The notes beneath the pieces are model-generated. The model was not told the origin of the DNA. It worked only from the letters and a program-made list of their open reading frames with translations, and made no database searches. Of a DNA stretch of 64,000 nt, positions 1 through 15,567 are shown piece by piece. A program made the position numbers and the translations under genes. How positions within the stretch are numbered: the first letter of the stretch is position 1; each line of letters starts with the position of its first letter. Source of the stretch: Paeniglutamicibacter terrestris (GTDB lineage: Bacteria > Actinomycetota > Actinomycetes > Actinomycetales > Micrococcaceae); contig NZ_JAAWVT010000001.1 in the NCBI RefSeq assembly GCF_012271785.1, forward strand, positions 372,001 through 436,000, written 5' to 3'.

Positions 1-1302
1 CATGACGACCTTCCCGGTGGCCGGAACACCGGTGGAGGTACGCGTGAGGGTGGCGTCAACTGCCGCCTTCCATTTGGCTCCGTAACCGAGCTGTTCGTTC
101 TCTTTCACAAATCCGGTGAACTTCTGATCCAGCGTCTCATCGGTGACGTTGCAGTCACAGGAGGACTTGAGCGTATTCACCTTGCGCATCGCGTAGGTTC
201 GTCCGGCCATGGCCTGGGCTTGGAGCACCGCCGAGGGCCAAGATGAGGGAACCTCGGCCAGACCATAGAGATACTCATCGTTGAGCCGCAAGGAGGTCAC
301 CAGATTGACCTGATCGCTGAGTATCCCGGCTTCCAGCACGCCATGGCGGTAGATCCCGGGTGAGGTGGATTCGGCGTTGGACTTGTTGATCAAGAGGGTT
401 GCCGCGGTAGATGCGGGCCAGGCCCGGGTGCCTTCCCATTGGATGCGCAATTTCCCGGTGACCAAGTTGGCTTGCGGGGCAGGGTTTATGTCCCTGACCC
501 CGTCTTTGTTCAGGTCGCGTGCAATGACGTCGTATCCGGCCGGGGTCTTAAACGTATAGCTCAGCGAGGTGCCGCTACGGGAGAAGGACAGTGTGGAACC
601 CGCCGCCCCCGTGTAAGTCTTTTTGGCCGTCGGATCAATCACGCGCATTTTTCCGCCGGCAACGCTCAGCGAGCTGGTCGCTGACTTGAGCAGTTGCACA
701 CGGATGTCACTGGCTGCCGAGCTGGTGCTGGCCGTGACGGTGGCCGGGTTGTAGTAGTACTGCAGGATGGAGGTGGCGCTTTTGCCTTCCTCGGCCATGG
801 AGCGGGCGCCGTATTGACTCATCCCTACCCCGTGCCCCCAGCCGGAACCTGCGAGGGTGAAGTCCCCCGGCTTGGGCGCCGGTAGCCAGTAGCTGGTGCC
901 GTTGCTGCGTGCACCCAGAATGCCACCGGTGAAGGCCTGCCGGGTGTCGGCTCCGTAGCTGTACTGTTCGGCCGTCGGGTAGCCGAACCTACCGTTTTCC
1001 CAGCCGGTGTCCGCCCACGCCTGGGCCAACGCATTGCGGACCGTCAAGGCCTTACGAGTATCGGAATACACCACAATTCCGTCGCCGTGCGAACGCCACA
1101 GTCGCCCGTCCTTCAGCTTCCCGGTGGTGGCGTCGGCGCCGCCAAGGCTTATGGCGGCCTTAGCCAGGTATGTCGCATTGGACTCGGCGATAGGTGCGGC
1201 CGGCACCATCGTGGTGATCGAGGGAGCTGCCGCGGCCGCGGTTCCGGGAATCAGCACGCCGACGAACAAGGTGGCAGCAAGCATCAGGGCGGTAGGTCTC
1301 AT
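1..1302 (-). CDS. SpoIID/LytB domain protein with LGFP repeat, 3' end cut by window
   Basis: The reading frame is open from the ATG at 1302 to the window edge, giving 434 codons with the C-terminus missing. Residues 1-25 form a signal peptide ending in a run of alanines. Residues about 63-112 match an LGFP repeat (W-x-S, GDG, a repeat of the aromatic spacing, then GRFGYPT). LGFP repeats are known from actinobacterial envelope proteins and are thought to hold proteins to the wall. Residues 153-166 carry GWGHGVGMSQYGA, the hallmark of SpoIID/LytB domains, some of which are amidase enhancers or peptidoglycan transglycosylases. A purine-rich AAGGA precedes the start. The family assignment is firm; the enzymatic role is inferred. 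Confidence 0.85.
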   Translation of the reverse strand, partial: MRPTALMLAATLFVGVLIPGTAAAAAPSITTMVPAAPIAESNATYLAKAAISLGGADATTGKLKDGRLWRSHGDGIVVYSDTRKALTVRNALAQAWADTGWENGRFGYPTAEQYSYGADTRQAFTGGILGARSNGTSYWLPAPKPGDFTLAGSGWGHGVGMSQYGARSMAEEGKSATSILQYYYNPATVTASTSSAASDIRVQLLKSATSSLSVAGGKMRVIDPTAKKTYTGAAGSTLSFSRSGTSLSYTFKTPAGYDVIARDLNKDGVRDINPAPQANLVTGKLRIQWEGTRAWPASTAATLLINKSNAESTSPGIYRHGVLEAGILSDQVNLVTSLRLNDEYLYGLAEVPSSWPSAVLQAQAMAGRTYAMRKVNTLKSSCDCNVTDETLDQKFTGFVKENEQLGYGAKWKAAVDATLTRTSTGVPATGKVVM

Positions 1303-1407
1303 CGGTTTCCTTGGGGCGGCGCGACGGCGTTGTCCGGTTACACCCGGGGCCATGAAATCTGATCATACTTCAGCTGCATTAACTCGGCAGCAGTTTCGCC
1401 TCACCCG

Positions 1408-2499
1408 GTGGTGCACGATATCTTGGCACCAGCACCTTTCACGCCATCAAACAGGAGTTTTGTCATCTCGTCCATCATCACCGCTTCCACCCATGGCTCG
1501 CTGGGTCTGGTGATGTTGCGCCGCCCCGAGGCCATCAATGCCCTCACCCTGGGCATGCTGGAAGACCTCACTCGGATCTTCACGGACTTTAGATCCGATA
1601 CCAAAATCTCCATGGTCATCCTGCAGGGTGCGGGGGCACGCGGATTTTGTGCCGGTGGGGACATCAAGGACTTTCACGCAGCGGTCAGCAGCGGGGAACA
1701 CCAACGCTTCCTAGAGTTACTGAGACTCGAATTTGCCCTTGATGAGATGATCGCCAACTATCCCAAACCGGTGATCACCATGGTCCATGGCCTGTGTATG
1801 GGCGGCGGGATCGGCCTGGCCTCCCATGCTTCGATCCGCATCACCACACCAGAGGCTCGTTTTGCCTTGCCCGAGGCGCGCATCGGATACTCTCCCGATG
1901 TGGGATCCACCCTGCTGATGGCCAGGGCCCCGGGGCACGTGGGTGAATACTTGGCCCTGACCGGGACCAGCTTCACCGGTGCCGACGCGGTAGAACTGGG
2001 TTTTGCCGACATGATGGTGAGCCAAGATCGCTTCGAGGAAATCTTTGAGGCACTACCCGACTTCGATTCGATGCCCGCGGCGGAAATCGCCGCTGGCATC
2101 GAGGTACTTTTTGGCTTCTTTGCCGCTTCCCCGCTCGCCAGCCAACAGCCGTGGATTGATGCTGCCTTCTGCGCACCCACCGTTCCGGAGATCATTCAGC
2201 GGCTTTCGACGATGCGCCATCCGGCCGCCGCAGAGGCGCTTGCTGCCATTCAGGCCAACTCCCCCACCTCGCTGCACTGCGCGCTGGGCGCCGTGCGGGC
2301 AGCACGCACCGAGGATCATCTGCGCTCGGCACTGGATCGTGAACTGCGGGTGGCCGAATACTTGATGTACCGCGGGGATTTGACCGAGGGCATCCGCGCC
2401 CAGGTCATCGACAAGGACCGCTCACCACGCTGGAGTCCACTGACTGTAGATCCGGCCACCGAGCGGGAGATTGCAGCGCTGATCACCGTGGAGCAATAG
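1408..2499 (+). CDS. 3-hydroxyisobutyryl-CoA hydrolase-like (enoyl-CoA hydratase/isomerase family)
   Basis: This 363-residue protein has the crotonase fold signature. The oxyanion-hole motif RGFCAGGDIKDF sits near residue 80 and HGLCMGGGIGLASH near residue 130, followed by PEARIGYSPDVG. The length of about 350 residues and the C-terminal extension separate it from 260-residue enoyl-CoA hydratases and match 3-hydroxyisobutyryl-CoA hydrolase, which releases 3-hydroxyisobutyrate in valine breakdown. The start is uncertain. GTG at 1408 or 1411 are the only in-frame candidates upstream of the conserved region, and neither has a good ribosome binding site. No valine pathway partners lie nearby, so the substrate is inferred from family only. 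Confidence 0.8.
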   Translation: MVHDILAPAPFTPSNRSFVISSIITASTHGSLGLVMLRRPEAINALTLGMLEDLTRIFTDFRSDTKISMVILQGAGARGFCAGGDIKDFHAAVSSGEHQRFLELLRLEFALDEMIANYPKPVITMVHGLCMGGGIGLASHASIRITTPEARFALPEARIGYSPDVGSTLLMARAPGHVGEYLALTGTSFTGADAVELGFADMMVSQDRFEEIFEALPDFDSMPAAEIAAGIEVLFGFFAASPLASQQPWIDAAFCAPTVPEIIQRLSTMRHPAAAEALAAIQANSPTSLHCALGAVRAARTEDHLRSALDRELRVAEYLMYRGDLTEGIRAQVIDKDRSPRWSPLTVDPATEREIAALITVEQ

Positions 2500-2945
2500 C
2501 GCTGCTGAAGTCTTGTCCTGCCTCACTGCCCCAGTAGCATGTGAGTCCGCGGCCACGGAAGGCAATGTTTCTTACCTCTATCAACGAGCTGAGCGAAGTG
2601 TCGCAGGGCAGTGCCCTACGCAAAAAGATGCTGCTCTCCGAAGCTGAATCCGAAGCATTCCTGCTCTTCCTCCTTCATGACGGATTCGCTCGGCTGCGCT
2701 AGCACTGGACCCACGAGCGCACCGTGGTTTAGGACCGGCACGCCGCAGTGTCCCTTAGAGACGACAGAACACGCGTTTCGGCGGTGGTTACCCGACCCTC
2801 CGGCCAGCGAGACGGCCGCCACCGTCATGACCCAAAAACGCAAGGACCGCTGATCCGGGATTTTCCCGAACTCAGCGGCCCCCTGCATCTAAATAAAATC
2901 CGGGCTAACCGAACTTGTATTGGCTTTGGCCGAAGCGGGTGGAAC
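2500..2945. other. Intergenic stretch, one doubtful 45-codon ORF
   Basis: No convincing gene is seen on either strand. A plus-strand ORF at 2565-2702 (ATG, 45 residues, a GGAAGG two bases before the start) has a weak coding look but no recognisable family, and the spacing is too tight for a normal ribosome binding site. The stretch may hold a degraded gene. Confidence 0.4.
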
Positions 2946-3101
2946 CTACAACGGCCAGTTGTTGTTTCCGCCCAAGGTCTTAACGATGCCAGCGCTCTGC
3001 GCCGAACCGCTATCGGGCTGCACAACGCCGGCGGAACCGCCAACGACCACTGCCCCGGCAAGCAGCATTGCGGCAAGGGCCGAACCCAAGATCTTCTTCA
3101 T
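2946..3101 (-). CDS. Small secreted peptide, 51 residues
   Basis: The ATG at 3101 opens a 51-residue frame ending at TAG (2946-2948). A GGAGA ribosome binding site stands a few bases upstream on this strand. The product starts MKKILGSALAAMLL and continues as an alanine/valine-rich hydrophobic segment to about residue 24, a typical Sec signal peptide. Cleavage after GSA near residue 24 would release about 27 residues ending in GGNNNWPL. There is no lipobox cysteine and no cysteine at all, so a lipoprotein or disulfide-bonded peptide is unlikely. It is transcribed divergently from a TPR protein starting at 3343. I do not recognise the family; an exported signal or a structural peptide is possible. 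Confidence 0.6.
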   Translation of the reverse strand: MKKILGSALAAMLLAGAVVVGGSAGVVQPDSGSAQSAGIVKTLGGNNNWPL

Positions 3102-3200
3102 ATATTCTCCATCTCAATCAATATTCGGGCGAGTGATCGGGGCAATGCCCGTAATGCCCGCACCCTAAACGGATCGGCAACCCCAAAGAGCTATGCTAAT

Positions 3201-3225
3201 GCTCACCTGTGCTCACCTGTGCTCA
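3201..3225. repeat. Tandem 10-bp repeat in divergent promoter region
   Basis: GCTCACCTGT occurs twice back to back (3201-3210 and 3211-3220), followed by the partial unit GCTCA. It lies in the 241-base gap between the secreted peptide gene and the TPR gene, about one helical turn per unit, so it could be a phased operator. This is directly visible; a regulatory role is inferred. Confidence 0.5.
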
Positions 3226-3342
3226 TCCGAGTGAATTCGTCATAGAAATTTTCCGTGTCACCTGCCCTTTAGTCTATTCTCGGACTTTCGGCGGACGGGA
3301 ATTCTGACGTTGTCCATCGCCGCATGGAGCATAATTGAGGGC

Positions 3343-4326
3343 ATGCCCCACCGTTCACTCGAATTCCTTGCCGCCAAGGCGGAAGCGCACCACCGCAGGA
3401 TCCGGACTTCAGGAGATCAGCAGCAGGTGCTGGAAGCAGCCAGGGCGTGTGCCCGCATCTACGGGGAACTGGGAGATGAAGCAAAGGAATCCGACTTTCT
3501 TTACGACTTGGGAAAAAGCCAGATCCTTACCGGTGCGTATGCGGCGGCTTTCCAAACCGCCGAAAACCTCATGGCTTTCGCGCGGATGCAAAGCGACCTG
3601 GTATTCAAGGTCCAGGTCCTGATCCTGCGTGCGGCGGCCCTGCGCAACCAGTCCCGGCACGAAGAAGCCGTAGAAACCGCACGCCGGGCCCTTGCTGTCA
3701 TGTCAGAAGTCCAAGATAGCGACCATGCCCGCGCCGAGGCCTACCAGGGAATCATTGCGTGTTTGGTTGAGGCGGACAAGGCTGACGAGGCCTGGGCCAT
3801 CCACAGCCGGTTGTCCGACACGTTGGAACACGTTGAGGACACTTTGCTGGCCGGTCAGGGTTTTTGGACACTTGGCAACCTCGCGTTCGCGAAGGCTCAT
3901 GTCGCCGAGGGATTCGCCTATCACCAGCGCGCGGCCGACCAACTGCAACAGATCAACGACATCCATATGTGGGCCCGGTTCAACAATGCGAGCGCCGATG
4001 TGCAATTGCAGGCTGGAGTTGCCAACCAAAGCACCGAGGACTGCATTGTCCGTGCCCAACTGGCCTACGACATCATCGGAGGCAGCGCCGTGGAACTCCT
4101 GGGCTTGGCCGGAACCCGGGCACGATGGTACGTGGCAAACGGTGATCTTGAAGAGGCGTCCTCCTTGTTGGAGAAGGCACTGGCCGATGCCTACGGCTGC
4201 GGTGCCCCTGAGGACGCGACGGTGCACCTCTTATGGTCACAAATACTCGACGCTTTGGGGTACACCGACGAAGCTCGCCGGGAACGCGACCACGCTGCCC
4301 GGATCGAAAAGACAGCTGAGCACTGA
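3343..4326 (+). CDS. Tetratricopeptide repeat protein without DNA-binding domain
   Basis: I chose the ATG at 3343, preceded by GAGGG, over a TTG 33 bases upstream, giving 327 residues. The protein is all-helical, with repeated helix pairs carrying TPR-like spacing. Examples are the segments around residues 65-80 (GAYAAAFQTAENL), 100-115 (SRHEEAVETARRAL), 165-180 and 255-275 (NGDLEEASSLLEKAL). No helix-turn-helix precedes the repeats, and no signal peptide or membrane segment is present, so it should be a cytosolic scaffold or peptide-binding protein. It resembles the TPR part of RRNPP-type receptors and of bacterial AfsR/SARP C-termini. The divergent neighbour is a small secreted peptide gene. 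The specific function is unknown. Confidence 0.75.
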   Translation: MPHRSLEFLAAKAEAHHRRIRTSGDQQQVLEAARACARIYGELGDEAKESDFLYDLGKSQILTGAYAAAFQTAENLMAFARMQSDLVFKVQVLILRAAALRNQSRHEEAVETARRALAVMSEVQDSDHARAEAYQGIIACLVEADKADEAWAIHSRLSDTLEHVEDTLLAGQGFWTLGNLAFAKAHVAEGFAYHQRAADQLQQINDIHMWARFNNASADVQLQAGVANQSTEDCIVRAQLAYDIIGGSAVELLGLAGTRARWYVANGDLEEASSLLEKALADAYGCGAPEDATVHLLWSQILDALGYTDEARRERDHAARIEKTAEH

Positions 4327-4348
4327 CCCGGCGCCGTGCCAGGTCAGC

Positions 4349-5914
4349 CTACGAAGCCTTCTTGGATTCCTTGAGGATGGTCTTAACCTGCTCGTTGCTC
4401 AGACGAGACCACGGTGAATCGACGGCGCCTTGCACCGCGGCGTCTGGACTCTGCGCCTGGTTCCACCATTTGGCCTCAAAAATCCGACCGTCGAAAACGA
4501 TCCGATCGCCCTTTTCATAGACCTTTCCGGCCGCCCATGCCGGGTACGTTCCTGCCGGCACCTTAACAGTTTCCTCCGGCTTGTCGCCGGGAAGTACCGG
4601 TCCGATTAGCGTCCAGGCGGTCGCGCGCGCATCACTGGCCGGCAGATCCGGAGCTTCTCCCTGGGTCCACCATTTTGCTTCGTAGACATTGCCGCGCCAT
4701 ACGAGGCGTTCCGACTTTGGGTAGGCGGCTTCGGCGTTCCATACCGGGTAAGGACTCTTCTCGGGGTCATCGACGATGGCCGTCTCGGCGGGGGCTTGAA
4801 TGGGTGACGGGTTTGCCTTCGCCGGGGCGCCGGCGGAGTCTAGATCGGCAGCGAGCAGGCTGGCGAAAGCTCCATCATCCTGACTGGTTCCGCTGCAGTT
4901 GTTCGATACCCTTTGCAGGTCCGGGAAGTTGGGCCCGCAGTCCGCGTCCCTGTTCGCTGACCACATCGAAATCCGGCCTACGCCAGTGGCGACAGCAAAA
5001 TCCTTCAATGCCTTGGCATCATCCAACGTGAATACCTCGCCAATTAGGTCATTCTGGCCGATCATCGGTGTGAGACCGATCTTCGCCCACAGTGTTTGGT
5101 CCCCCATCTCTCGCCCCAACTGGCCGAACAGCGCCTTGAGCTGTGCGTGGGCGCTGCGTGCGCCCTGCTCCGATGCCGCTGCCATGCTGTCGCCCGCGGC
5201 GCGCGTAGCCCCAAAGTTCATCGTCATTAAGTTCACTCCCGCCAGGTCCACACCACCTTCAAGGAGCCGCTTGACTTCGCCGAGGCCGGACTCGGTCAGA
5301 CCTCTGGTATCGACGGGAAGGGTCACCCAGACTTCCAAGGGCTTCCCTGCGTCCTTGGCACGGGTTTGAAGGGCAGTCACCGCAGAAGCACGCCGGAGGG
5401 AAGCTGTGGAATCCTCGAGGTCGTTTCCCTCGACATCCAGATCGAGCGTGCTGGAATCGTATCGCTGAAGGAACGACTCATATCCGGCGATGATCTTCTC
5501 TTCGTCGGTGCAGGCGGTGGAGAGTTCGTCGTTGTTCAACCCACCGGTGGAAATAACGATCTCTCCGCCTTGTTCACGCACCCGAGCCACCTTGCGGTCC
5601 AGGTCGAACGTCTCATTGGCACTGTCCATGGAGTAGTAACCACCCCAGGAGTTCACGCATGGGTCCTTAGGATCCGCCACGGCGAACCCGAGGACAACTC
5701 GTTGTCCCCGCGCTACGTTCTCGGCAATCGGATAGAACGGTGTCGAAGTCGCGTCCACGTAGGAACCGTACCAGCGCCCCGTGTCGGCGGCTCTGGCCGA
5801 ATCGCGATTCGTATTCCACAAGTAGATCCCGGTCCCCACCAATCCGGAGATCACCAAGGCAACAATGAAGACGCGGATCCATGACAGATGCCTGCCAGCG
5901 GTCATTTTAGGCAC
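4349..5914 (-). CDS. GH18 chitinase-like glycosidase, membrane-anchored, two CBM5/12 modules
   Basis: This 521-residue protein has an N-terminal membrane segment at about residues 12-34 after a basic stretch, so it is an anchored or secreted protein. A glycoside hydrolase 18-like barrel spans about residues 45-345. Its core strand reads LDLDVEG near residue 158, fitting the DxDxE catalytic pattern of chitinases. Two C-terminal carbohydrate-binding modules of the chitin-binding type follow, at about 388-440 and 455-507, each with a YPxW start and a YEAKWW or FEAKWW core. Family knowledge points to beta-1,4-GlcNAc polymers as substrate or ligand. It is divergent from the GT2 synthase at 6197, suggesting it trims or remodels the polymer made there. 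Confidence 0.85.
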   Translation of the reverse strand: MPKMTAGRHLSWIRVFIVALVISGLVGTGIYLWNTNRDSARAADTGRWYGSYVDATSTPFYPIAENVARGQRVVLGFAVADPKDPCVNSWGGYYSMDSANETFDLDRKVARVREQGGEIVISTGGLNNDELSTACTDEEKIIAGYESFLQRYDSSTLDLDVEGNDLEDSTASLRRASAVTALQTRAKDAGKPLEVWVTLPVDTRGLTESGLGEVKRLLEGGVDLAGVNLMTMNFGATRAAGDSMAAASEQGARSAHAQLKALFGQLGREMGDQTLWAKIGLTPMIGQNDLIGEVFTLDDAKALKDFAVATGVGRISMWSANRDADCGPNFPDLQRVSNNCSGTSQDDGAFASLLAADLDSAGAPAKANPSPIQAPAETAIVDDPEKSPYPVWNAEAAYPKSERLVWRGNVYEAKWWTQGEAPDLPASDARATAWTLIGPVLPGDKPEETVKVPAGTYPAWAAGKVYEKGDRIVFDGRIFEAKWWNQAQSPDAAVQGAVDSPWSRLSNEQVKTILKESKKAS

Positions 5915-6196
5915 ATCTAACTCAATTCATAATCATTTCGCGCAATCTGTAAAAACTTTCCACAGTAAGGCAATTTATCGATATTTAATTCAACGAGAAA
6001 TGATAAATTTTAACGCCAAGGGAATAAATTTGTAGACGCGGGAATCTTGTGCAAATCTTGTGCAAATCTTGAGCATAGTTATCGATCTCAAAATTCATAT
6101 CACGCAAGGATCATACGCTAGGATCAGGATTGGAAGTGCATTAGGGGTAATCAGACGCCCTAGCGCGCACGTCGATTCGCTGGGGAGAAGACAGTC
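5915..6196. promoter_or_regulatory. AT-rich divergent promoter region with three 11-bp repeats
   Basis: The 282 bases between the GH18 gene and the GT2 operon are much richer in A+T than the flanks. They hold three consecutive 11-base units: AATCTTGTGCA at 6043-6053 and 6054-6064, then AATCTTGAGCA at 6065-6075. A period of 11 bases places the units on one face of the helix, as expected for a direct-repeat operator. The GT2 start codon TTG at 6197 is preceded by GGGGAG at 6182-6187. Confidence 0.55.
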
Positions 6197-8515
6197 TTGA
6201 ATACCACTGATAGTGACAGCTGGGGCAACATCACGGAAATAAGGAAACGTCAATGGGGGGCTGAGAAGCGATCTGAACCATTATCAATAGTTCATCCAAT
6301 TCCTTCACGCCGGAAAATGGCCTGGGGGCGCATTGGGATCGTTACGACCATTCTGGCTTGGGTTAGCTACGTCATCAGCACGATCATGCGGCAACTTGCA
6401 GACAATCCAGATGCCGGCTTCCGGTTTCGTTTCGAGGCAGCCATGTACCTTGCAGTGGTCACCTTCCTTACCTTCTCTGCGTTGATGTACCTCGTCGCCC
6501 GGCAGGGCGCGCTTCTGCGCTTTTCCCAGCACCGCCGGGTGCCCCGCGGCGAGCTGGACAGACACTTCCGTACCTACGAGAAGTCGATCACGACGTTGGT
6601 CCCCAGCTATGCCGAGGAACCCTCGGTGGTCAGGCAGACGCTCTGGTCAGTCGCCCTGCAGGAATTCACGAACCTGCACGTGGTATTACTCGTGGACGAC
6701 AATCCCTACCCGCAGGATCCCGAGGTCCTGGCAAAGCTGCAGGAAACCCGCGACCTGGCCACGAATATCCAACTGGAATTGGAGCCTGCACTCAACGCTG
6801 CCCATTCCTCCCACACCCTACTCACCCGACAACGTGAGGCCGGAGCTTCGTCCGCACAAATGTTGGCAACCACGATCGAGGCCTACGATGCGGCAGCCAC
6901 CTGGCTCGAGGACATGGCCGCCAACGAAAAAGTCGAGGACCATGTGGACGAGTTCTTCGTCGATTCGGTCATCATGGGCCTGGCACGCGAACTGCGCCTG
7001 ACGTTGTTGGCCCTCAAAGCGGCCGCTGCACAAAACGATTCACCGGGCAGCGACCGGCTCGAAGAATTCCATTTGCGGTTGGAACGAATTTTCTCCGTGC
7101 AGATGCACTCGTTCGAACGCAAGAAATACGCGAACCTCTCGCAAGAAGTGAACAAGGCAATGAACCTCAACGCCTACATCTCCCTCATGGGTCAAAAGTG
7201 GCTCGTTGAGCAGCGGGGGGACATCGAGGTTCTGCGTGCCCTAGATCCAGCTCAAGAGATCCCGGAAACGGGCCAGGTCCTTGCGATACCGGACTCCGAA
7301 TACCTGCTCACGCTGGACGCCGATTCATTGCTACTGCGGGACTACTGCCTGCGCCTGGTCTACTTTCTCGAATCCGAGGAAAACTCCCGCGTGGCCGTAA
7401 CCCAAACCCCCTATTCCTCCTTCCGCGGCGCACCGACCCGCATCGAACGTCTTGCCGGTGCCACGACGGATATCCAACACATTCTGCACCAGGGAAAGAC
7501 CCGCTACAACGCCACCTTCTGGGTCGGGGCCAATGCCGTAATCCGCAAGCAGGCCTTGCTAGATATATGCCAAACTGCCACCGTCGGCGGATATGAGATC
7601 CAAACTTATATCCAGGATCGCACCGTCATCGAGGATACCGAGTCGAGTATCGACCTCGGAACCTACGGCTGGACCCTGTCCAACTACCCCGAGCGACTGA
7701 GCTACAGTGCGACTCCCCCCGATTTTGGTTCCCTTGTGGTTCAGCGTCGCCGCTGGGCCAACGGCGGTCTGTTGATCCTTCCCAAGTTTGGCCGGCAGAT
7801 CAGTGACCGCAAGCGCCGCAATGAGCGCATTGGATTGCGTGAGGTGTTGCTGCGGGTCAACTACATGGCATCGATTGCTTGGGCAAGCGTTGGCTTAATC
7901 TTCCTCTTGGCCTACCCTTATGACGGTCGTCTGCTCAGCCCACTGATCTTTGCGGCGGCACTACCTTATTTCATCGCCATGGGGAGCGACCTGCGCGACA
8001 GCGGTCACCGGTTCAGCGACATCTTCCGAATCTACGGATTCAACCTGATTCTCTTGCCGGTCAACATGGCCGGCGTCCTCAAATCCACGGAACAGGCATT
8101 TACCGGGGAAAAGATTCCCTTTGTCAGGACCCCCAAGGTCCGCAATCGGACAGCTTCCCCGGGACTCTATGTGGCCATCCCCTACCTGATCGTCATCTTC
8201 TCGCTCTTCACCATGTGGCGTGATTTCCAGGACAGCAACTGGGGCAATGTTGCCTTTGCCGCGTTGAACTCCGTGCTGGCCCTCTACGCCATCCGTGCCT
8301 ACATTGGTTTCAAGAACTCGATCGTCGACATGGCCCTTGGTCTCGTCAACTGGCTCTTCGTCTCACCCAAGAAGGTCAAGAAAGCCGCGATGGCCTACCC
8401 GGTGGCCACACCTGAGAATACCGATTGGTCGACCTTGTTGTACCAGGGCGACCGCCGCTTGGATCGTGACCTTCGCGGAAATGACGACCGCCGTAAGAGG
8501 ATCGGGGTCAAGTAA
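6197..8515 (+). CDS. Processive membrane glycosyltransferase (GT2, cellulose/chitin synthase type)
   Basis: The start is TTG with GGGGAG nine bases upstream, giving 772 residues. Two membrane segments (about 43-64 and 82-101) precede a cytosolic GT2 domain. The nucleotide-binding and catalytic motifs are all present: VDD at 166-168, DAD at 374-376, ED at 479-480 and QRRRW at 516-520. The QxxRW box marks processive synthases. About four or five membrane helices follow between residues 550 and 710. The gap between the first Asp pair and DAD is about 205 residues and includes a long charged helical insertion. It heads a three-gene operon ending in a GGDEF-EAL protein, so synthesis is likely controlled by c-di-GMP. 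The sugar polymer is unknown. Confidence 0.88.
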   Translation: MNTTDSDSWGNITEIRKRQWGAEKRSEPLSIVHPIPSRRKMAWGRIGIVTTILAWVSYVISTIMRQLADNPDAGFRFRFEAAMYLAVVTFLTFSALMYLVARQGALLRFSQHRRVPRGELDRHFRTYEKSITTLVPSYAEEPSVVRQTLWSVALQEFTNLHVVLLVDDNPYPQDPEVLAKLQETRDLATNIQLELEPALNAAHSSHTLLTRQREAGASSAQMLATTIEAYDAAATWLEDMAANEKVEDHVDEFFVDSVIMGLARELRLTLLALKAAAAQNDSPGSDRLEEFHLRLERIFSVQMHSFERKKYANLSQEVNKAMNLNAYISLMGQKWLVEQRGDIEVLRALDPAQEIPETGQVLAIPDSEYLLTLDADSLLLRDYCLRLVYFLESEENSRVAVTQTPYSSFRGAPTRIERLAGATTDIQHILHQGKTRYNATFWVGANAVIRKQALLDICQTATVGGYEIQTYIQDRTVIEDTESSIDLGTYGWTLSNYPERLSYSATPPDFGSLVVQRRRWANGGLLILPKFGRQISDRKRRNERIGLREVLLRVNYMASIAWASVGLIFLLAYPYDGRLLSPLIFAAALPYFIAMGSDLRDSGHRFSDIFRIYGFNLILLPVNMAGVLKSTEQAFTGEKIPFVRTPKVRNRTASPGLYVAIPYLIVIFSLFTMWRDFQDSNWGNVAFAALNSVLALYAIRAYIGFKNSIVDMALGLVNWLFVSPKKVKKAAMAYPVATPENTDWSTLLYQGDRRLDRDLRGNDDRRKRIGVK

Positions 8516-8517
8516 CC

Positions 8518-8979
8518 ATGAGCAGCATTCCTTCCCTCGAAATGAATCGTGGGGCAATGAACTGGCCTGAGGCCCTTCCCTCGATGCTCCACTCCACCGA
8601 ATCCCGACCGGTATGGACGCAGGAAAACGAGCACGCGCAACTCACGTTCTTTGCCAACGAATTGCTGGAAATCAGTTTCAGTCCCCGCACGGAGCTCACC
8701 GCCCCAACGGCCATGGAGCTGTTGGCCATTGCCAACGCCCGGCTTGAACACAGGATCAAATACCTGCTGATCGACATTTGCAGCTTGGACAGAATAGATG
8801 TGGAAGTCTCCCGAATCTTCAATTCCGTTACCGAGGGCATCCGCATCGCCTTGCTGGGCGCCGGGCCAACCGATCGCGTCCTGGCCCGCTTCTTCGTGCG
8901 CAAGATCGATCCGCTGCGTCGATTCACCTACACCGAGAGGCGCCAGGACGCGCTGGCGTTCCTGCTGGAAAATGACTGA
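8518..8979 (+). CDS. Small STAS-like protein (DUF7793-like)
   Basis: The ATG follows the synthase stop by two bases, and the 3' end overlaps the next gene by eight bases, so all three genes should be translated together. The 153-residue product alternates strands and helices, with a central LLIDICSLDRIDVEVSR segment and a following ALLGAG turn. This resembles the STAS/SpoIIAA fold in small actinobacterial proteins such as DUF7793. No serine phosphorylation site can be assigned with certainty. Position suggests a regulatory partner of the synthase or of the GGDEF-EAL protein. The family name is from memory and tentative. Confidence 0.65.
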   Translation: MSSIPSLEMNRGAMNWPEALPSMLHSTESRPVWTQENEHAQLTFFANELLEISFSPRTELTAPTAMELLAIANARLEHRIKYLLIDICSLDRIDVEVSRIFNSVTEGIRIALLGAGPTDRVLARFFVRKIDPLRRFTYTERRQDALAFLLEND

Positions 8980-10504
8980 AGTTCAGCCATCGTTGCCGGA
9001 CGAACCTCGCATTCCCCAGATTGTTGATGCCATCCTCAGGATCGCAGACATGGATTTCAACACTTTGCTGCACCCCAGTTGCAAGCGCGACGAAATCGAT
9101 GCCATCATCATGGGGATCAATGCCATGGCTTCCGACCTGGAAACCACGTATTCCACCCTAGATTGCCGAGTGGCCGAACGCACTCGCCAGCTTGAGGCAG
9201 CCCGAGACCAAATGGCGTTGCTGGCTTACACTGACCCTTTGACCTCGCTGGCCAACCGCTCGGCCTTGATGAATGAAATTGAAAAATCACTCGAAGCCAC
9301 CCGCACCGGCGATACGGCCCCGATCCTGATGCTGTTGGACCTCGATGCGTTTAAGAGCATCAACGACACCTACGGTCATGCCATGGGCGACAAGGTCCTA
9401 CGCCAGTTGGCCGACAGGCTGCGCAGCTGTGTGCGCACCGAGGACGTGGTGGCCCGTTTGGGAGGTGACGAATTCGCTATCTTGGTGCGCATGCCAGAAC
9501 ACGGTGCCATCCGAGCAGGTCGGCGCATTGTCGCGGCCATGAGTGCGGACATGGTCATTGACAACATCCACCTGAGCCCTGGCGCCAGCCTCGGTATGGT
9601 CAGGGCTACTGCGAGCCATTCTGCCGACAGCTTGGTGCTGGAAGCGGATACGGCCATGTACGTGGCCAAATGCCTAAGCACGGAAAAGGTCGTCGAATTC
9701 GAGCCCTTCATGCTCTTTGAACGGCGCGAAAAGGCCGAAATGCTTGCAGATCTCCGACAGGCATTGGGGACCGACCAGTTCTTCCCCGCCTACCAGGCAG
9801 TGATCTCCTTAGCAGATGAGTCAATCGTCGGTGCCGAAGCATTGGTGAGATGGCAGCGCACCGGCCACGGCTTGGTGCGGCCGGATCAGTTCCTGCCCAC
9901 CGCCGAGGAATCGGGCATGATCGGGGAACTGACCGAATACCTGTTGGACCGGGTCTTGTACGACGTGAAGACTTGGCGCGCCGCCAAACTCATCGACGAC
10001 ACCTTCAAAGTCCATCTGAACGTCACCTCGCGTGAACTTCATGACCTGCGATTTGCCGACGCGGTGCGCACGGCCTTGCGCCACCACGACCTACCAGCCA
10101 CCGTCTTGGTCCTGGAAATCACCGAGAACCGCTTGATGTCAGGAGACAACCTGCACCGCTACACGCTGCTAGCCCTGCGAAAAATGGGCGTCGAGGTCTT
10201 CATCGACGATTTTGGCACGGGATACTCCTCTATCAGCTACCTGCGGCAATTGCCTGTCGCCGGTGCCAAGATCGACAAGTCGCTGGTCGATGACATTGCC
10301 GTGGACCCGACGCAGGAGTCTTTTCTTCGCGCCATTTCGGACTTGATCGCTGCCTGTGAGCTCAAGTGCATCGTCGAGGGCGTGGAGACGATCGAACAGT
10401 CGGCAAAGCTCAAGGCCATGGGGTTCACGATGGTGCAGGGATTTCACTACGCCCGTCCGGTGGATACATCCGGTTTCTCGGAGCTGTTGCTTCAAGGCCG
10501 ATGA
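8972..10504 (+). CDS. GGDEF-EAL protein (c-di-GMP synthesis/degradation)
   Basis: The ATG at 8972 lies inside ATGACTGA, overlapping the preceding stop; the frame is open further upstream but that part shadows the previous gene. The 510-residue protein has a short N-terminal HAMP/coiled-coil-like region (15-85), a GGDEF domain with intact GGDEF at 164-168 and an RTED inhibitory I-site five residues before it, and an EAL domain starting AEALVRW at 288-294. The EAL domain keeps DDFGTGYSS and the EGVET glutamate, so both activities could be functional. There is no membrane segment or PAS domain. The operon position ties c-di-GMP to the GT2 synthase. Confidence 0.92.
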   Translation: MTEVQPSLPDEPRIPQIVDAILRIADMDFNTLLHPSCKRDEIDAIIMGINAMASDLETTYSTLDCRVAERTRQLEAARDQMALLAYTDPLTSLANRSALMNEIEKSLEATRTGDTAPILMLLDLDAFKSINDTYGHAMGDKVLRQLADRLRSCVRTEDVVARLGGDEFAILVRMPEHGAIRAGRRIVAAMSADMVIDNIHLSPGASLGMVRATASHSADSLVLEADTAMYVAKCLSTEKVVEFEPFMLFERREKAEMLADLRQALGTDQFFPAYQAVISLADESIVGAEALVRWQRTGHGLVRPDQFLPTAEESGMIGELTEYLLDRVLYDVKTWRAAKLIDDTFKVHLNVTSRELHDLRFADAVRTALRHHDLPATVLVLEITENRLMSGDNLHRYTLLALRKMGVEVFIDDFGTGYSSISYLRQLPVAGAKIDKSLVDDIAVDPTQESFLRAISDLIAACELKCIVEGVETIEQSAKLKAMGFTMVQGFHYARPVDTSGFSELLLQGR

Positions 10505-10808
10505 TCCGCTGCAGCATTCCGGCTGGGGGGGTGAAAACAGCTAGATGGGCCCAAGGATTTCAGGGGACCGGGTAATAGTTTAAACGGATCATGCGTTTAG
10601 CCTTCGACTTGATCCTTTGAAGCTGACCCTATGAGGTCTCCCGTGGAATTCTCGGGCTGTCTACGGATCCCAATTCGTCAACTATCCGATGACAGAGCTG
10701 TGCGAGGGTGCCACAAAGAATCCTGAGCAGCCCGTTGCTCGTGCCACAGACCGCTATTCCAAATGGCTGACATGGCAGTTGACATGAGGACGGGGAGCTG
10801 CAGCCTGT
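10505..10808. other. Intergenic, no gene seen
   Basis: This stretch separates the convergent c-di-GMP operon and the MFS gene. It contains a short inverted repeat TAAACG-N7-CGTTTA (10581-10599) without a T-tract, which could form a weak hairpin. I see no ORF with a ribosome binding site and no RNA gene. Confidence 0.5.
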
Positions 10809-12041
10809 CTACTTTTTCAGCGAGCGCAGCGGCACCACGGAGGCTAGGGTCACAACACCCATGGCAGTACCAAGGGCAGCAAATGCTCCGCCGGCGCCCA
10901 ATGTAGTGGCAAAGATGCCAATGCCCACGGGAATCACCGACTGTCCCAGCCGGTTGCCCAGCAACCGAATCGACATCCATGTGCCGCGGGTGCCCTCCGG
11001 GGCGATCAGCGTCACCACGCTCATGCTCAATGGTTGTCCGATACCCAACGCCAGACCGGCCAATACCAGCGCCACGGCCATCGCGATAACCGGCAGCGGC
11101 ACCACCAGCAGCGCCACCAGCACCGCGGCCGCACCCGTGGAGACAAGCATGAGAGTGCCCCGGCCAAATCTGCGGACCAAGTGATCCAACCCCAACCGGG
11201 AGAGCACCGTGGCACCGGCTCGTGCCGCCAGCAAGAGCCCGACGGTTTGGGTGGAGATGCCGCGTTCCACGGCCAACGCCGGAAGATAAACCTGCAGCAG
11301 GTCAACGGTGCATAACACCATCATGCTCAGCGTGATCGAGGCGATCAGCGGACTGCGGGCCGAACGTTCAACGTTCAGTGCGGTGCGCAGCTTCACCTGC
11401 TTTGTGAGTTCACCGCGTGGCACACCGACCGGGTGCCTGGCCATAAAGATGCTGGCCGCCAGCACGCCGAAGGCTCCCACCAGGTAGGCGCGCATCAGCA
11501 CTGAGGTATCCGGGGCCACCGCACTCCCGCCCAGCACACCGAGCAACAACGGGGCCACGGCCTGGGCCAGTGCCGTCACGGTGGTGTACAGCCCGAAGAC
11601 TCGATCCATGTTCCGATTCCGGGCCGAGGCCAGCCGACTTTGCTCACCGATCAGGCTCATCAGGTGTCCCACACCCAAGAGCAGATTCCAGCCCAGCAAT
11701 GCTGGCAGGGTGGGCGAAGCAAAAAGTAATCCGGCACCGGGGATGATCAGCAGCGCTGAGCCCACCAACAGGATGCTCTTTTCCCGGCCGCGATCCGCTG
11801 CCTGACCAATCAAGACGGCGAGGAACACCGGCAGAATGGAAAAGCTCGCCACCACCAGGCCCAGCAGCCCCGGATCTACCCCTAGCTCCAGCGCCTTGTA
11901 GGAGGTTGCTGGCCGCACCAAAAAAACCGACCCCTGCAATAAAAAGCCGTGGGCAAGCACGGACGGGAAACCGATGCCAGCAACGGGGTTTTTGGGGGCC
12001 ATAAATGCCATTATCCCAAGCCGGGCGGCATCCCGGCGCAT
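10809..12041 (-). CDS. MFS transporter
   Basis: This 410-residue protein has about twelve hydrophobic segments and the MFS loop motif after the second helix (GQAADRGREKS). A long cytosolic loop sits near residue 200 (RGELTKQVKLRT). The start is uncertain: ATG at 12041, or internal ATGs at 12011 or 12002. It begins nine bases after the stop of the glutamate-synthase-like gene and is probably co-transcribed with it. Substrate unknown; an exporter is as likely as an importer. Confidence 0.8.
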   Translation of the reverse strand: MRRDAARLGIMAFMAPKNPVAGIGFPSVLAHGFLLQGSVFLVRPATSYKALELGVDPGLLGLVVASFSILPVFLAVLIGQAADRGREKSILLVGSALLIIPGAGLLFASPTLPALLGWNLLLGVGHLMSLIGEQSRLASARNRNMDRVFGLYTTVTALAQAVAPLLLGVLGGSAVAPDTSVLMRAYLVGAFGVLAASIFMARHPVGVPRGELTKQVKLRTALNVERSARSPLIASITLSMMVLCTVDLLQVYLPALAVERGISTQTVGLLLAARAGATVLSRLGLDHLVRRFGRGTLMLVSTGAAAVLVALLVVPLPVIAMAVALVLAGLALGIGQPLSMSVVTLIAPEGTRGTWMSIRLLGNRLGQSVIPVGIGIFATTLGAGGAFAALGTAMGVVTLASVVPLRSLKK

Positions 12042-12050
12042 CGGCGGGAG

Positions 12051-13799
12051 CTACACCTCATGCTGTGGCGCAAGTTTGCCCTCCGGCCGCGCAGCCGCGG
12101 GGTGTACCGGGGCGACAGTGTGGTGGGTCGAATCCTTGGGTTCCACCCGTGCCGGGCTCACGGTTCCCGCGACCACTGAGGCCGATTCACGCGGGGTGGG
12201 CCAGGGCAGTGGCGCGTGTTCGCCGAAGGTGTCGGCGTCAGCCTCCGCCCAGTCCGGTGCCCAACCGCGCGGCGGATCGGCCAGTAATTCGCCGGGCGCC
12301 AACCAGTGGTGCAGACCCGCGTAGCTGCGGGTGGTCAGCTGATCAACGCGGCGGCGCAACATCCTGGTGTTCAGCTGGGCCGGATCACTCACGCCCATCG
12401 AGGCCATCAGCTGGGCAGCTTCCTGCACCGTGAGCTTGTGATAGTTATAGACCCGGTTGCCCTTGTCCACCACGTCCAGCGCGCGGAAGAGCCGCGGGTC
12501 TTGGGTGGCAACACCCACGGGGCATTCGTTGGTGTGGCATTTCTGCGCCTGAATACAGCCGGTGGCCATCATCATGGCCCTGGCACTGAAGGTGAAGTCG
12601 GCCCCCTGAATCAGCCGCTTGACCACGTCCGAGCCGGTGGCGACCTTACCCGCGGCACCGAGTCGAATTTTGGCGCGCAGCCCGCAACCCACCAGCGCGT
12701 TGTGCACCAGCATCAGGCCCTCGGTCAGCGGGGTTCCCACGTGGTCTTCGTATTCCAATGGGGCGGCTCCGGTGCCGCCCTCGGATCCATCGACGGTGAT
12801 GAAATCGGGGGTGATCCCGCTTTCCAGCATGGCCTTGCACATGGCCAGAACATCGGTACGCGAGCCAACACAGAATTTGTACCCCACCGGTTTGCCGCCG
12901 GAGAGTTCGCGCAGTCTGGCAACAAACTCCATCAGCTCGATCGGCGTGGAGAAGGCCGAATGCGAGGCGGGGGAAATGCAGTCAATGCCCATCGGCACCC
13001 CACGGGTCTCGGCAATTTCTTGGGTGATTTTCGCCGCCGGCAAGACCCCGCCCAACCCGGGCTTGGCACCCTGGGAGAGTTTGATGGTGATCCCTTTAAC
13101 GTGCTCTTTGGCGGCCTTGACGGCAAAGATCTGCGGGTCGAATCTACCGGCCTCATCGCGGCAGCCAAAGTATCCCGAGCCGATCTCCCAGAAGATGTCC
13201 GCCCCGTGTTCCAGGTGGTAGGAGGCCAGCCCGCCCTCACCGGTTTCGTGGACAAAACCACCCATGGCGGCGCCCTTGTTCATGGCGAGCACCGCATTTT
13301 TGGACAGCGCACCGAAGCTCATCGAGGAGATGTTCATCAGCGAGATGTCATAGGGCTGGGTGCAGTCCGGGCCGCCGATGCGAACCCGGTGCTGCTGGGC
13401 GCTGACCTCTACCGGAACGGTGGAGTGCAGGAGGTATTCGTAGCCGACCTCGTTCACGTCGCGTTCGGTGCCAAAGGCCTTGTGGCTATCGGCGCCCTTG
13501 GCGCGCGCATAAACCAGCGAGCGGGTGTCCCGGTCAAAGGGGCGACCATCGGTATTGCGCTCGATGAAGTATTGCTGGATCTCCGGGCGAATGGATTCAA
13601 AGAGGAATCGCATTCGTCCCAAAACCGGGTAGTTGCGCAGGATGGCGTGTTTTTTCTGGATGACGTCGTGAATGCCCAGCCCCAGCAGGCCCACCATCAG
13701 CACAGCGATCACCCACCAGCCGCCCGGCCCCAGGGAGGCGGCGATGATCGTAATGAAGCCGAGCAGGGACAACAACGCAAGAATCAGAAATCTCACCAT
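12051..13799 (-). CDS. FMN-binding glutamate synthase-like protein, membrane-anchored
   Basis: This 582-residue protein starts with two hydrophobic segments (about 4-22 and 27-44). The FMN and synthase domain of ferredoxin-dependent glutamate synthase follows, including SFGALSKNAV, the barrel segments ITIKLSQGAKPG and DFITVDGSEGGTGAAP, and the three-cysteine cluster motif CIQAQKCHTNECPVGVATQ that binds 3Fe-4S in GltB. The amidotransferase half is absent, so it is not a full GltB. Such stand-alone proteins are common and mostly uncharacterised. It sits directly downstream of davB on the same strand with a 61-base gap, so a role in handling ammonia or amino groups is possible but inferred. Confidence 0.85.
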   Translation of the reverse strand: MVRFLILALLSLLGFITIIAASLGPGGWWVIAVLMVGLLGLGIHDVIQKKHAILRNYPVLGRMRFLFESIRPEIQQYFIERNTDGRPFDRDTRSLVYARAKGADSHKAFGTERDVNEVGYEYLLHSTVPVEVSAQQHRVRIGGPDCTQPYDISLMNISSMSFGALSKNAVLAMNKGAAMGGFVHETGEGGLASYHLEHGADIFWEIGSGYFGCRDEAGRFDPQIFAVKAAKEHVKGITIKLSQGAKPGLGGVLPAAKITQEIAETRGVPMGIDCISPASHSAFSTPIELMEFVARLRELSGGKPVGYKFCVGSRTDVLAMCKAMLESGITPDFITVDGSEGGTGAAPLEYEDHVGTPLTEGLMLVHNALVGCGLRAKIRLGAAGKVATGSDVVKRLIQGADFTFSARAMMMATGCIQAQKCHTNECPVGVATQDPRLFRALDVVDKGNRVYNYHKLTVQEAAQLMASMGVSDPAQLNTRMLRRRVDQLTTRSYAGLHHWLAPGELLADPPRGWAPDWAEADADTFGEHAPLPWPTPRESASVVAGTVSPARVEPKDSTHHTVAPVHPAAARPEGKLAPQHEV

Positions 13800-13860
13800 G
13801 ACTTGAGCCTAGCGCCAACTCCGAGCGCGGCGCCGCAGGCACCGCGCTCGGCTGGCAGAA

Positions 13861-15567
13861 CTAGTTCCGCACGCTCAGGTTTTCATCAAGCTTCAGCGGA
13901 CCGAGTTCGGCTAGGAATTGCCCGGGGCCCGGGTTCTGCGCGGCGTCTTCGCCGCCGAGGTGACGCAGCACGCCCCAGACCGCGTTCAGCGCCGTGGTCA
14001 CAGCGCCTTCCGCCCAGCCCGCGGTCCAGGACACGTCATCACCGGTTAGGAAGATGCCGCGGTGTTCGGCCGGAGCTTCGCGCTGGTCAAAGTGTGTGTA
14101 GAGGCGTTCCTGGTAACGGTAGTGGCCGGGCAGGTTGGCCTTGAAGGCTCCCATGAAGTGCGGCTCGGCCTCCCAAGAGACGGTGATCGGCTGACCGACG
14201 ATGTGGCTGCGAATATCCACCTGGGGGTAGATCTTCGCCAGCGAATGCAGCATCAGCTCCATGCGGCGTTCGGCCGAGAGCGAGAGCCACTTCAGCGCGT
14301 CATCATTCCAGGTGTAGGAGAGCAGAATGACGGCCGGGGCGTCATCGCCGTTATCCAGCAGATAGGTGGCGCGGTTCAGTCGATCCGTCAGGGTCATGGA
14401 GAGCAGGAATTCGCCGGTGACCGGGTCCCGGTCCTTCCAGAAGGGGCGGTCCACCATGACAAAGGTTTTAGATGATTGCATGTAGTGCGAGCGCTCGATC
14501 GCCGTCCAGAGCTCGGCGGGGAACAAATCTTCCTCGGTGTCGATCCCGGTGGAGAGCAACCAGGACTGTACGGAAGACACGACCACCGGGTAAGTCTGGG
14601 TGCGGCCGAATTGTTCGGTGATCTCAATGGCCGTACTGCCATTAAAGCCTGGCTCTTCCGAGCGGCGAATCGTGGCTACCGCCCCGCGGGGTGCACCGGA
14701 ATGCAGCGAGGCCAGCGTGGTACCTACCGGCCAGTGGGCCAGCTCCTGCGGTGCGTGGTTCCACAGACCGTGGGGCAGCTTCGCTGCTCCCCCGATGATG
14801 CCGCGGTGATTATCATCCGCGTCCGTGTAGACCACGCGCAGGATTTCCAGGATGGAGTTGGAGAAGTCGGTGTCCCAGCCACCGGAGCCGAAGCCAACCT
14901 GACCGAAGGCCTCGCGGTGTTCAAAGCCCGCCTCCTTGAATGCGGCCGAGTTGGCGATGAAGCCGTAGAAGCTCTCCTCATCAAATTCTTCGAGTAGCGA
15001 GTTCCAGATCCGCTTGACCTCGAGCGCATCACGCGATTTGATGGCCTGCTGCATTTCATCAAACGATGCGTCCTCGCGCAGCGCCCGCTTCCAGGCATCG
15101 GCGACCTCGTGGAAGAAGGCCGGCAGGTCTCCCTCCTTTTCTACGTAGACCTTTTTGCCCTTGAGCTCGATGACCGTGGAGTCGGTCGGCGCGGCCAGCG
15201 GGTTGGGGAAATCGAAGGTTTCCAGACCCAGCAAATCGATGTAGTGGTACAGCGCCCTGCTGGAGACCGGGAAGCGCATGCCACCGAGGTCGCAGGTGAT
15301 CTCCGGTGCGGATGCGAAGCTGGCGGTGCGCAGCCGTCCACCAATCTGATCGGCCTCGTAGATGACCGGCTTGAGACCCAACTTCATTAACTCGTACGCC
15401 GTGACTAATCCGGAGAGTCCCGCGCCGATGACGGCAACTTCCGTGCCGTAGAGTTCCGGCGGAACACTGCCCAGACCGGCCGGATGGGCCAGGAACAGAT
15501 CGTAGTTAAAGGGGAAGTCGGGGTTCAACATGTTGATCGTGCCATCACTCTGCGGCAAATTGTTCAT
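13861..15567 (-). CDS. davB: L-lysine 2-monooxygenase-like flavin amine oxidase
   Basis: This 568-residue flavoprotein carries the dinucleotide-binding motif VIGAGLSG at 47-54 and the second FAD segment GGRLR. It matches, from memory, Pseudomonas putida DavB along its whole length. Shared stretches include PDFPF...HPAGLGS near the start, GGMRFPVSS, GQVGFGSGGWD, MQSSKTFVMVDRPFWKD, LPGHYRY and GDDVSWT. DavB converts L-lysine and oxygen to 5-aminopentanamide and CO2. Tryptophan 2-monooxygenase (IaaM) is the nearest alternative. The nearby amino acid permease, PucR regulator and nitrilase-family amidase fit the DavBA lysine route. AAGGACGCAGGACG precedes the ATG. Confidence 0.85.
   Translation of the reverse strand: MNNLPQSDGTINMLNPDFPFNYDLFLAHPAGLGSVPPELYGTEVAVIGAGLSGLVTAYELMKLGLKPVIYEADQIGGRLRTASFASAPEITCDLGGMRFPVSSRALYHYIDLLGLETFDFPNPLAAPTDSTVIELKGKKVYVEKEGDLPAFFHEVADAWKRALREDASFDEMQQAIKSRDALEVKRIWNSLLEEFDEESFYGFIANSAAFKEAGFEHREAFGQVGFGSGGWDTDFSNSILEILRVVYTDADDNHRGIIGGAAKLPHGLWNHAPQELAHWPVGTTLASLHSGAPRGAVATIRRSEEPGFNGSTAIEITEQFGRTQTYPVVVSSVQSWLLSTGIDTEEDLFPAELWTAIERSHYMQSSKTFVMVDRPFWKDRDPVTGEFLLSMTLTDRLNRATYLLDNGDDAPAVILLSYTWNDDALKWLSLSAERRMELMLHSLAKIYPQVDIRSHIVGQPITVSWEAEPHFMGAFKANLPGHYRYQERLYTHFDQREAPAEHRGIFLTGDDVSWTAGWAEGAVTTALNAVWGVLRHLGGEDAAQNPGPGQFLAELGPLKLDENLSVRN

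Follow-up and report, generated by a model that had tools for sequence, protein, structure and literature searches.

A likely RRNPP-like peptide-receptor system with Trp-Pro cores in Paeniglutamicibacter terrestris and related Micrococcaceae, and its linkage to GGDEF-EAL genes

Organization of the locus

The window, meaning the whole 64,000-nucleotide stretch of Paeniglutamicibacter terrestris DNA that was analysed, contains a short gene for a peptide precursor which is divergent from a gene for a protein built of tetratricopeptide repeats (TPR) without a helix-turn-helix (HTH) domain, referred to here as the receptor (Table 1). Past a convergent gene follows a same-strand operon ending with a GGDEF-EAL gene, which overlaps the gene preceding it by 8 bp and starts 4.6 kb behind the receptor.

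Table 1. Features of the peptide-receptor locus (coordinates of the window)
Feature	Position	Strand	Remarks
Secreted peptide precursor	2946..3101	-	51 aa; signal sequence, short spacer, single core copy at the extreme C-terminus
Core NNNWPL codons	2949..2966	-	putative mature signal or its end
Shared divergent promoter region	3102..3342		TGCTCAC(C) present as three direct repeats (3200-3227)
HTH-less receptor	3343..4326	+	327 aa; interpreted as eight TPRs; start possibly at TTG 3310 instead
Protein with CBM5/12 modules, glycoside hydrolase 18-like (GH18-like)	4349..5914	-	GH18 below Pfam cut-off; conserved neighbour
Family 2 glycosyltransferase (GT2), polysaccharide synthase-like	6197..8515	+	Pfam; in conserved neighbour clusters
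Small protein weakly like DUF7793	8518..8979	+	E 9e-4, below Pfam cut-off; relatives in part of the loci
GGDEF-EAL protein	8972..10504	+	510 aa; weak N-terminal HAMP match; GGDEF and EAL motifs intact

The precursor frame starts with ATG, preceded immediately by GGAG (as judged by eye), reads MKKILGSALAAMLLAGAVVVGG... and ends with LGGNNNWPL directly before the stop codon. No Pfam or NCBIfam family matched it at E 0.1. The terminal NNNWPL, or NNNWPF, was present in all eight members of the genus that have the pair; among the seven relatives of the window organism NNNWPL occurred twice in five, while two have a single copy, as in the window. Where these five close relatives carry the second NNNWPL, the window precursor has an alignment gap that falls between repeats of ggccagttgttgttt, and this alignment suggests that the window precursor may have lost one core copy between direct repeats. 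Scanning of the divergent region for sigma-70-like promoters produced no match. The TGCTCAC(C) repeats are possibly a regulator site; one similar GCTCACCTG was seen in the alignment in several relatives from the genus.

The mechanical start of the receptor frame is TTG 3310. The downstream ATG 3343 was preferred because the alignments to more distant members of the genus (G156, G180) begin there; the start remains unsettled, however, since with the closer relatives (G022, G094, G141, G050) the alignment extends upstream by another 5 to 8 residues.

Fold and conserved residues of the receptor

In Pfam only TPR_12 matched the window receptor above its cut-off, the rest being weaker matches of TPR type together with weak ones to HEAT_Nup120 and PPR, while the NCBIfam model HaaT, a TPR family associated with RiPPs, gave E 0.003, far below its cut-off. 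In general the two libraries assigned only generic TPR and HTH models to the receptors and no RRNPPA-specific match; whether they hold RRNPPA models was not checked. A sequence search of the PDB returned no RRNPPA chain among 34 matches at E 0.01.

The AF2 model of the receptor, built from 80 sequences, had a pLDDT of 95.0 and a pTM of 0.88 and was helical throughout from residue 2. Its 18 helical elements were interpreted as 16 helices forming eight TPRs. Invariant in the 80 sequences were W175 and N179 on helix 5A and W210 and N214 on helix 6A, i.e., twin WxxxN motifs spaced 35 residues apart; R221, R259 and W262, which we also place on A helices, were nearly invariant. In RRNPP receptors such asparagine residues hold the peptide backbone.

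The fold search with the window model matched RapJ in complex with its peptide (RapJ-CSF) at Z 20.0 and 5.4 A over 310 residues (model residues 1-327 aligned to RapJ 42-369), NprR at Z 19.1 and RapH at Z 18.9. The top rows, however, belonged to LGN (Z 25.5), a TPR protein whose structure is known in complex with peptide partners, and to other eukaryotic TPR solenoids. The model of a receptor with an HTH, from the second branch described below, gave NprR at Z 22.8, RapJ at Z 22.4 and LGN at Z 26.0. Since LGN and unrelated TPR solenoids score equally or higher, the match to Rap does not demonstrate common descent. PlcR, Rgg and AimR were absent from the best 50 rows with either model, which excludes nothing.

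The sequence-only reading had described a 51-residue peptide ending in GGNNNWPL and divergent from an all-TPR protein without a DNA-binding domain. Both frames proved to be as described, and the all-helical model and the lack of an HTH in the window receptor uphold the claim on the protein. The Sec export that it had also proposed is consistent with the signal sequence and remains an inference.

Conservation of the divergent pair

Within a set of 295 genomes of the family, receptor relatives (E 1e-5) were found in 143 and precursor relatives (E < 1e-6) in eight. The latter all belong to the genus of the window organism, and the same eight genomes carry the receptor, always divergent from the precursor. 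The more distant receptors of other genera are likewise accompanied by a divergent ORF for a secreted peptide with a Trp-Pro (WP) core. This was quantified on 162 distinct receptor genes with at least 700 bp upstream; at each of them the divergent ORF that looked most like a secreted one was picked, WP playing no part in the choice. The top-scoring ORF contained WP at 146 of them, and after two rows (L151, L154) had been judged to be chance 144 of 162 remained: 140 of 148 within the family and four of 14 in another family (f17) from the same order. Applied to 1002 other long frames from these loci, the same procedure yielded WP in 104. For ORFs scoring above 2.5 the figures were 144 of 147 at receptors against 15 of 165 at control frames, and at least two of these 15 (L177, L178) are themselves precursors of the same kind. 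The 18 receptor genes lacking a real WP precursor comprise eight from the family and 10 of the 14 from f17; inspection of L187 and L232 by hand revealed no secreted WP precursor.

Two outcomes would have spoken against the sequence-only reading: that the genes were not conserved as neighbours, or that the peptide belonged to a known structural or lipoprotein family. Both were looked for and neither was found, as the pair is conserved in divergent orientation (144/162 against 104/1002) and the window precursor has no Pfam or NCBIfam family and no lipobox. A lipoprotein nature was rejected for the precursors as a whole, none of the 144 containing a lipobox or any cysteine. The pairing of peptide and receptor is thus very likely genuine, and the case for it is stronger than could be seen from the single locus.

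Trp-Pro cores and their relation to the receptors

One WP copy was present in 49 of the 144 precursors, two in 47, three in 25, four in 15, five in six and six, the maximum, in two, so that 95 carry the core at least twice. In the multi-copy precursors, identity between the six-residue cores of one precursor is 99.6%, against 63.5% for the six residues preceding them. Examples are AIGNWPDPMK in six copies (L068), AVGNWPD in five (L132), KVGNWPD in three (L019), GGLWPY in two (L013) and, from family f17, PTVGGSWPT in three (L133).

When the 144 rows were labelled with their core residues on a tree of 150 receptors and compared with 500 shuffles, the residue before W required 20 changes (shuffled mean 54.6, lowest of the 500 49) and the residue after P 32 changes (shuffled mean 75.5, lowest 67). 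Furthermore, 29 of 30 precursors with WWP fell into a single receptor clade free of other cores (support 81, unstarred), L130 being the exception. The cores follow the receptor tree. These shuffle statistics overstate co-evolution, because relatives inherit both genes by descent. Cleaner evidence comes from 13 hand-picked genomes with two receptors, whose two cores differ in every case; for 11 of these genomes GNWPD pairs with a receptor carrying an HTH and the WWP core with an HTH-less one.

In two loci of f17 (L146, L147) a shared divergent ORF of 51 aa, some 320 bp upstream from the TPR gene, ends with PLARGDWP and has no clear signal sequence; it might be a leaderless signal or an ORF with a mis-set start.

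Two receptor branches

Receptors paired with GNWPDPM peptides have an N-terminal XRE HTH in 53 of 54 cases, and the one miss may be L083, which was cropped at its start. An HTH was also recognised in L133, L148 and L134 (all from f17), in L132 and in L029, and L118 gave a weaker match. In the other branch, to which the window receptor belongs, no HTH was matched in any of 84 sequences at E 0.01, a set that includes L029 cropped behind its HTH. The assignment of the domain rests on Pfam, as in the model of the HTH-branch receptor most of this domain has a pLDDT below 50.

The HTH receptors of GNWPDPM loci (e.g., L172) adjoin, as judged by eye, purC-like, purD-like and ABC exporter genes, a neighbourhood unlike that of the HTH-less branch.

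Linkage of HTH-less receptors to GGDEF genes

Neighbour clustering was based on a GC3-guided choice of genes, raw frames being swamped by false ORFs. The commonest conserved neighbour, present at 50 loci, was a same-strand protein with GGDEF and EAL motifs; only the window's protein and that of one relative were checked against Pfam. The linkage was then counted for 62 receptor genes in 60 stretches, 57 of them of about 19.5-20 kb and the shortest of 10.6 kb; the HTH was called with a model built from HTHs of the family itself and GGDEF with the window's domain. A same-strand GGDEF gene was found within 6 kb of all 40 HTH-less receptor genes, while none of the 22 HTH receptor genes had any GGDEF gene in the stretch read. 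Part of these loci had been selected with the GGDEF positions already known; one set of 20 loci taken alone gave 15/15 for HTH-less against 0/6 for HTH receptors. In the two species inspected (L074, L281) the receptor and GGDEF genes lie 2-3 bp apart. Such close coupling was seen only in other species, whereas in the window the GGDEF-EAL gene lies 4.6 kb away past the convergent gene, and this counts against the proposal that the receptor acts on the GGDEF-EAL protein.

The only GGDEF match found in the 4.34-Mb genome of the window organism is the one at this locus (window position 9224). From 15 genomes of the genus, eight have both the receptor and the GGDEF-EAL orthologue and six have neither; in the remaining one (G219) the contig with the GGDEF-EAL gene breaks off within the GH18-like gene and does not reach the site where the receptor would lie. 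Seven of the eight members with the pair have only one GGDEF gene in the genome. One member without the pair (G111) also has a single GGDEF gene, which was not matched by the window protein at E 1e-20. In a broader set of 80 genomes, 67 had GGDEF, and in 58 of these it was located within about 6 kb of a receptor (matched by hand), against one or two genomes expected by chance according to a rough estimate. The remaining nine consist of G111, which has no receptor, and eight in which an HTH-branch receptor locus was read, some with further receptor copies that were not read.

Genes for GH18-like, GT2 and GGDEF-EAL proteins remain grouped across Paeniglutamicibacter, Zafaria, Glutamicibacter and Arthrobacter, part of them with the DUF7793-like gene as well. 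Part of the GGDEF link may reflect one old cluster retained by descent, although the gene order differs between the genera.

Proposed mechanism

The system is likely an RRNPP-like peptide pheromone with a cytosolic receptor, in which the HTH-less receptors would set the c-di-GMP level through the neighbouring GGDEF-EAL protein; both peptide binding and the c-di-GMP output are inferred. No experimental data on binding, export, import or c-di-GMP stand behind the mechanism, and what can be read directly from the sequences is confined to the pair, its cores, the two branches and the gene linkage. As inferred from its sequence, the 51-aa precursor would be exported by Sec, and the tandem cores suggest that proteases would then free a short peptide with the Trp-Pro core (...NNNWPL in the window). 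An oligopeptide ABC importer may return it to the cytosol, which is feasible given the 15 SBP_bac_5 genes of the window genome as candidate binding proteins. Judging from conservation, the peptide would sit in the groove of the eight TPRs, held by the twin WxxxN residues of helices 5A and 6A. Having no DNA-binding domain, the receptor is expected to act by protein contact, and the gene linkage points to the co-located GGDEF-EAL protein as the most probable target. The same linkage suggests that this control would set c-di-GMP, which in turn may act on the neighbouring polysaccharide locus with its glycosyltransferase and GH18-like genes. The sister XRE-HTH receptors are predicted to control transcription with the same kind of peptides.

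The possible peptide-sensing pair proposed in the sequence-only reading is, even without binding data, supported as the best reading by the conserved neighbourhood, the tandem cores, the receptor tree, the TPR solenoid and the HTH-bearing sisters. What that reading had missed is that the family is widespread, that one of its branches carries an HTH and that a GGDEF-EAL gene accompanies the other, HTH-less one. A bolder version, to which we incline by a small margin, is that of an undescribed actinobacterial pheromone family with tandem Trp-Pro cores, in one branch of which a partner enzyme would replace the DNA-binding domain of the TPR receptor and the extracellular peptide would switch the GGDEF-EAL protein directly, without a transcription step. 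If this is true, population density would set c-di-GMP, in some species via the only GGDEF protein of the cell.

Alternative explanations

Of the other readings, the one hardest to dismiss accepts a true signal pair but lets the HTH-less receptor act elsewhere, on a response regulator or transcription factor, with the GGDEF-EAL protein being a target or a mere neighbour. Rap proteins, which are also HTH-less, act on regulators by contact, and structures of Rap-regulator complexes were among the fold-search matches; besides, the convergent GH18-like gene separates the receptor from the GGDEF operon in the window. We nevertheless regard this as unlikely in view of the GGDEF neighbour at 40/40 HTH-less against 0/22 HTH genes, the gap of only 2-3 bp in L074 and L281, and a gene set that stays constant while its order varies between genera.

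Still less probable is a role of the precursor as a multi-core RiPP or antimicrobial peptide, with the TPR protein serving its making or immunity. RiPP precursors also contain tandem cores, and the subthreshold HaaT match (E 0.003) points the same way. This reading was rejected: no modifying enzyme was present among the nine larger genes in window 1-15567 or recognised by eye among the neighbour clusters, cysteine is absent from all 144 precursors, and the sister TPR proteins carry a DNA-binding HTH. Finally, the two genes could be chance neighbours with separate ordinary roles, short secreted ORFs being common enough for a WP candidate to appear in 104 of 1002 control frames. The rate of 144/162 at receptors, together with cores that follow the receptor tree, leaves almost no room for this explanation.

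Relation to known systems

The pheromone reading places the pair next to the RRNPPA systems (Rap, Rgg, NprR, PlcR, PrgX, AimR), where a small exported propeptide, in some cases containing several pheromones, is encoded beside a cytosolic TPR receptor with or without an HTH (PMC9765709; PMC11343458). The present receptors likewise adjoin an exported propeptide gene (144/162), and the window receptor, an eight-TPR solenoid, falls within the range of 5 to 9 TPRs by which such receptors are defined (PMC9765709), with models of both branches near RapJ and NprR. In contrast to the RRNPPA systems of Firmicutes, the family occurs in Micrococcaceae and one further family of their order, has a W-P core and, in its HTH-less branch, is tied to GGDEF genes. 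As far as is known, all RRNPPA subfamilies except Rap have an N-terminal HTH. A close parallel is Rap-Phr of Bacillus, which also combines an HTH-less TPR receptor (RapJ aligning over 310 residues) with a secreted peptide, but nothing resembling Spo0F or ComA as a partner was seen in the window locus. Rap has an N-terminal helical bundle before its TPRs; the receptor model aligns to RapJ 42-369. The divergent gene order would be a further difference, given the position of the Phr gene in Bacillus. The HTH-less receptors would accordingly look Rap-like in design, with a second-messenger enzyme in place of the response regulator, a mechanism inferred from linkage. A precedent for contact control is RcbA/RcbB of Vibrio vulnificus, where a TPR protein shares its operon with a diguanylate cyclase and modulates this enzyme by contact (PMC12282931); unlike the window system, RcbB carries its own TPR domain fused to GGDEF, and the abstract of that study mentions no peptide signal (PMC12282931).

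Propeptides with TPR receptors are a known kind of system; within the scope of the searches made, the host group, the core and the association with c-di-GMP have no precedent. The RRNPP_detector screen covered only Firmicutes and viruses (PMC10075063), and the study of RRNPPA evolution searched Firmicutes (PMC9765709). In the open-access literature searched neither a description of this peptide-receptor family nor any of five core strings was found. Intracellular peptide quorum sensing via TPR receptors is known from Firmicutes, and soil actinobacteria would add well over 100 pairs with readable cores, in which receptors with and without an HTH offer a natural contrast within one family. The c-di-GMP link makes it testable whether a pheromone receptor controls a diguanylate cyclase/phosphodiesterase by contact, and the usual redundancy of such enzymes is removed in the seven of eight pair-bearing genus members that have one GGDEF gene per genome.

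Distribution and additional receptor copies

The window receptor had no relative in phages (E 1e-3) or plasmids (E 1e-8), and none of 87 pattern matches in viral contigs was confirmed; distant copies on mobile elements could have been missed, since these searches used one sequence or three patterns. A profile search at E 1e-20 was positive in 15 of 248 genomes of the order, in 10 of 149 genomes of f17 and in three of 346 genomes of the phylum, these three all from families f1 and f17. The negative part of the phylum result is weak, as scoring was limited to six first-look candidates in each genome.

Receptor paralogues for which no precursor could be recognised were observed at L097, L112, L141, L143, L144, L089, L187 (its first TPR gene) and L232; L097 and L112 lie, by eye, close to an rsmA-like gene. 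At least some precursor-less paralogues have an HTH (L144, L291). Such receptors might eavesdrop on a peptide made elsewhere. A genus member with four GGDEF matches has a second, distant receptor relative (31%; G200:C1:445827-446471). Finally, a contig titled Vibrio cholerae strain 35D (WNZI01000017.1; L167) carries a receptor-peptide locus of Arthrobacter type, and the assembly is probably mislabelled or contaminated.
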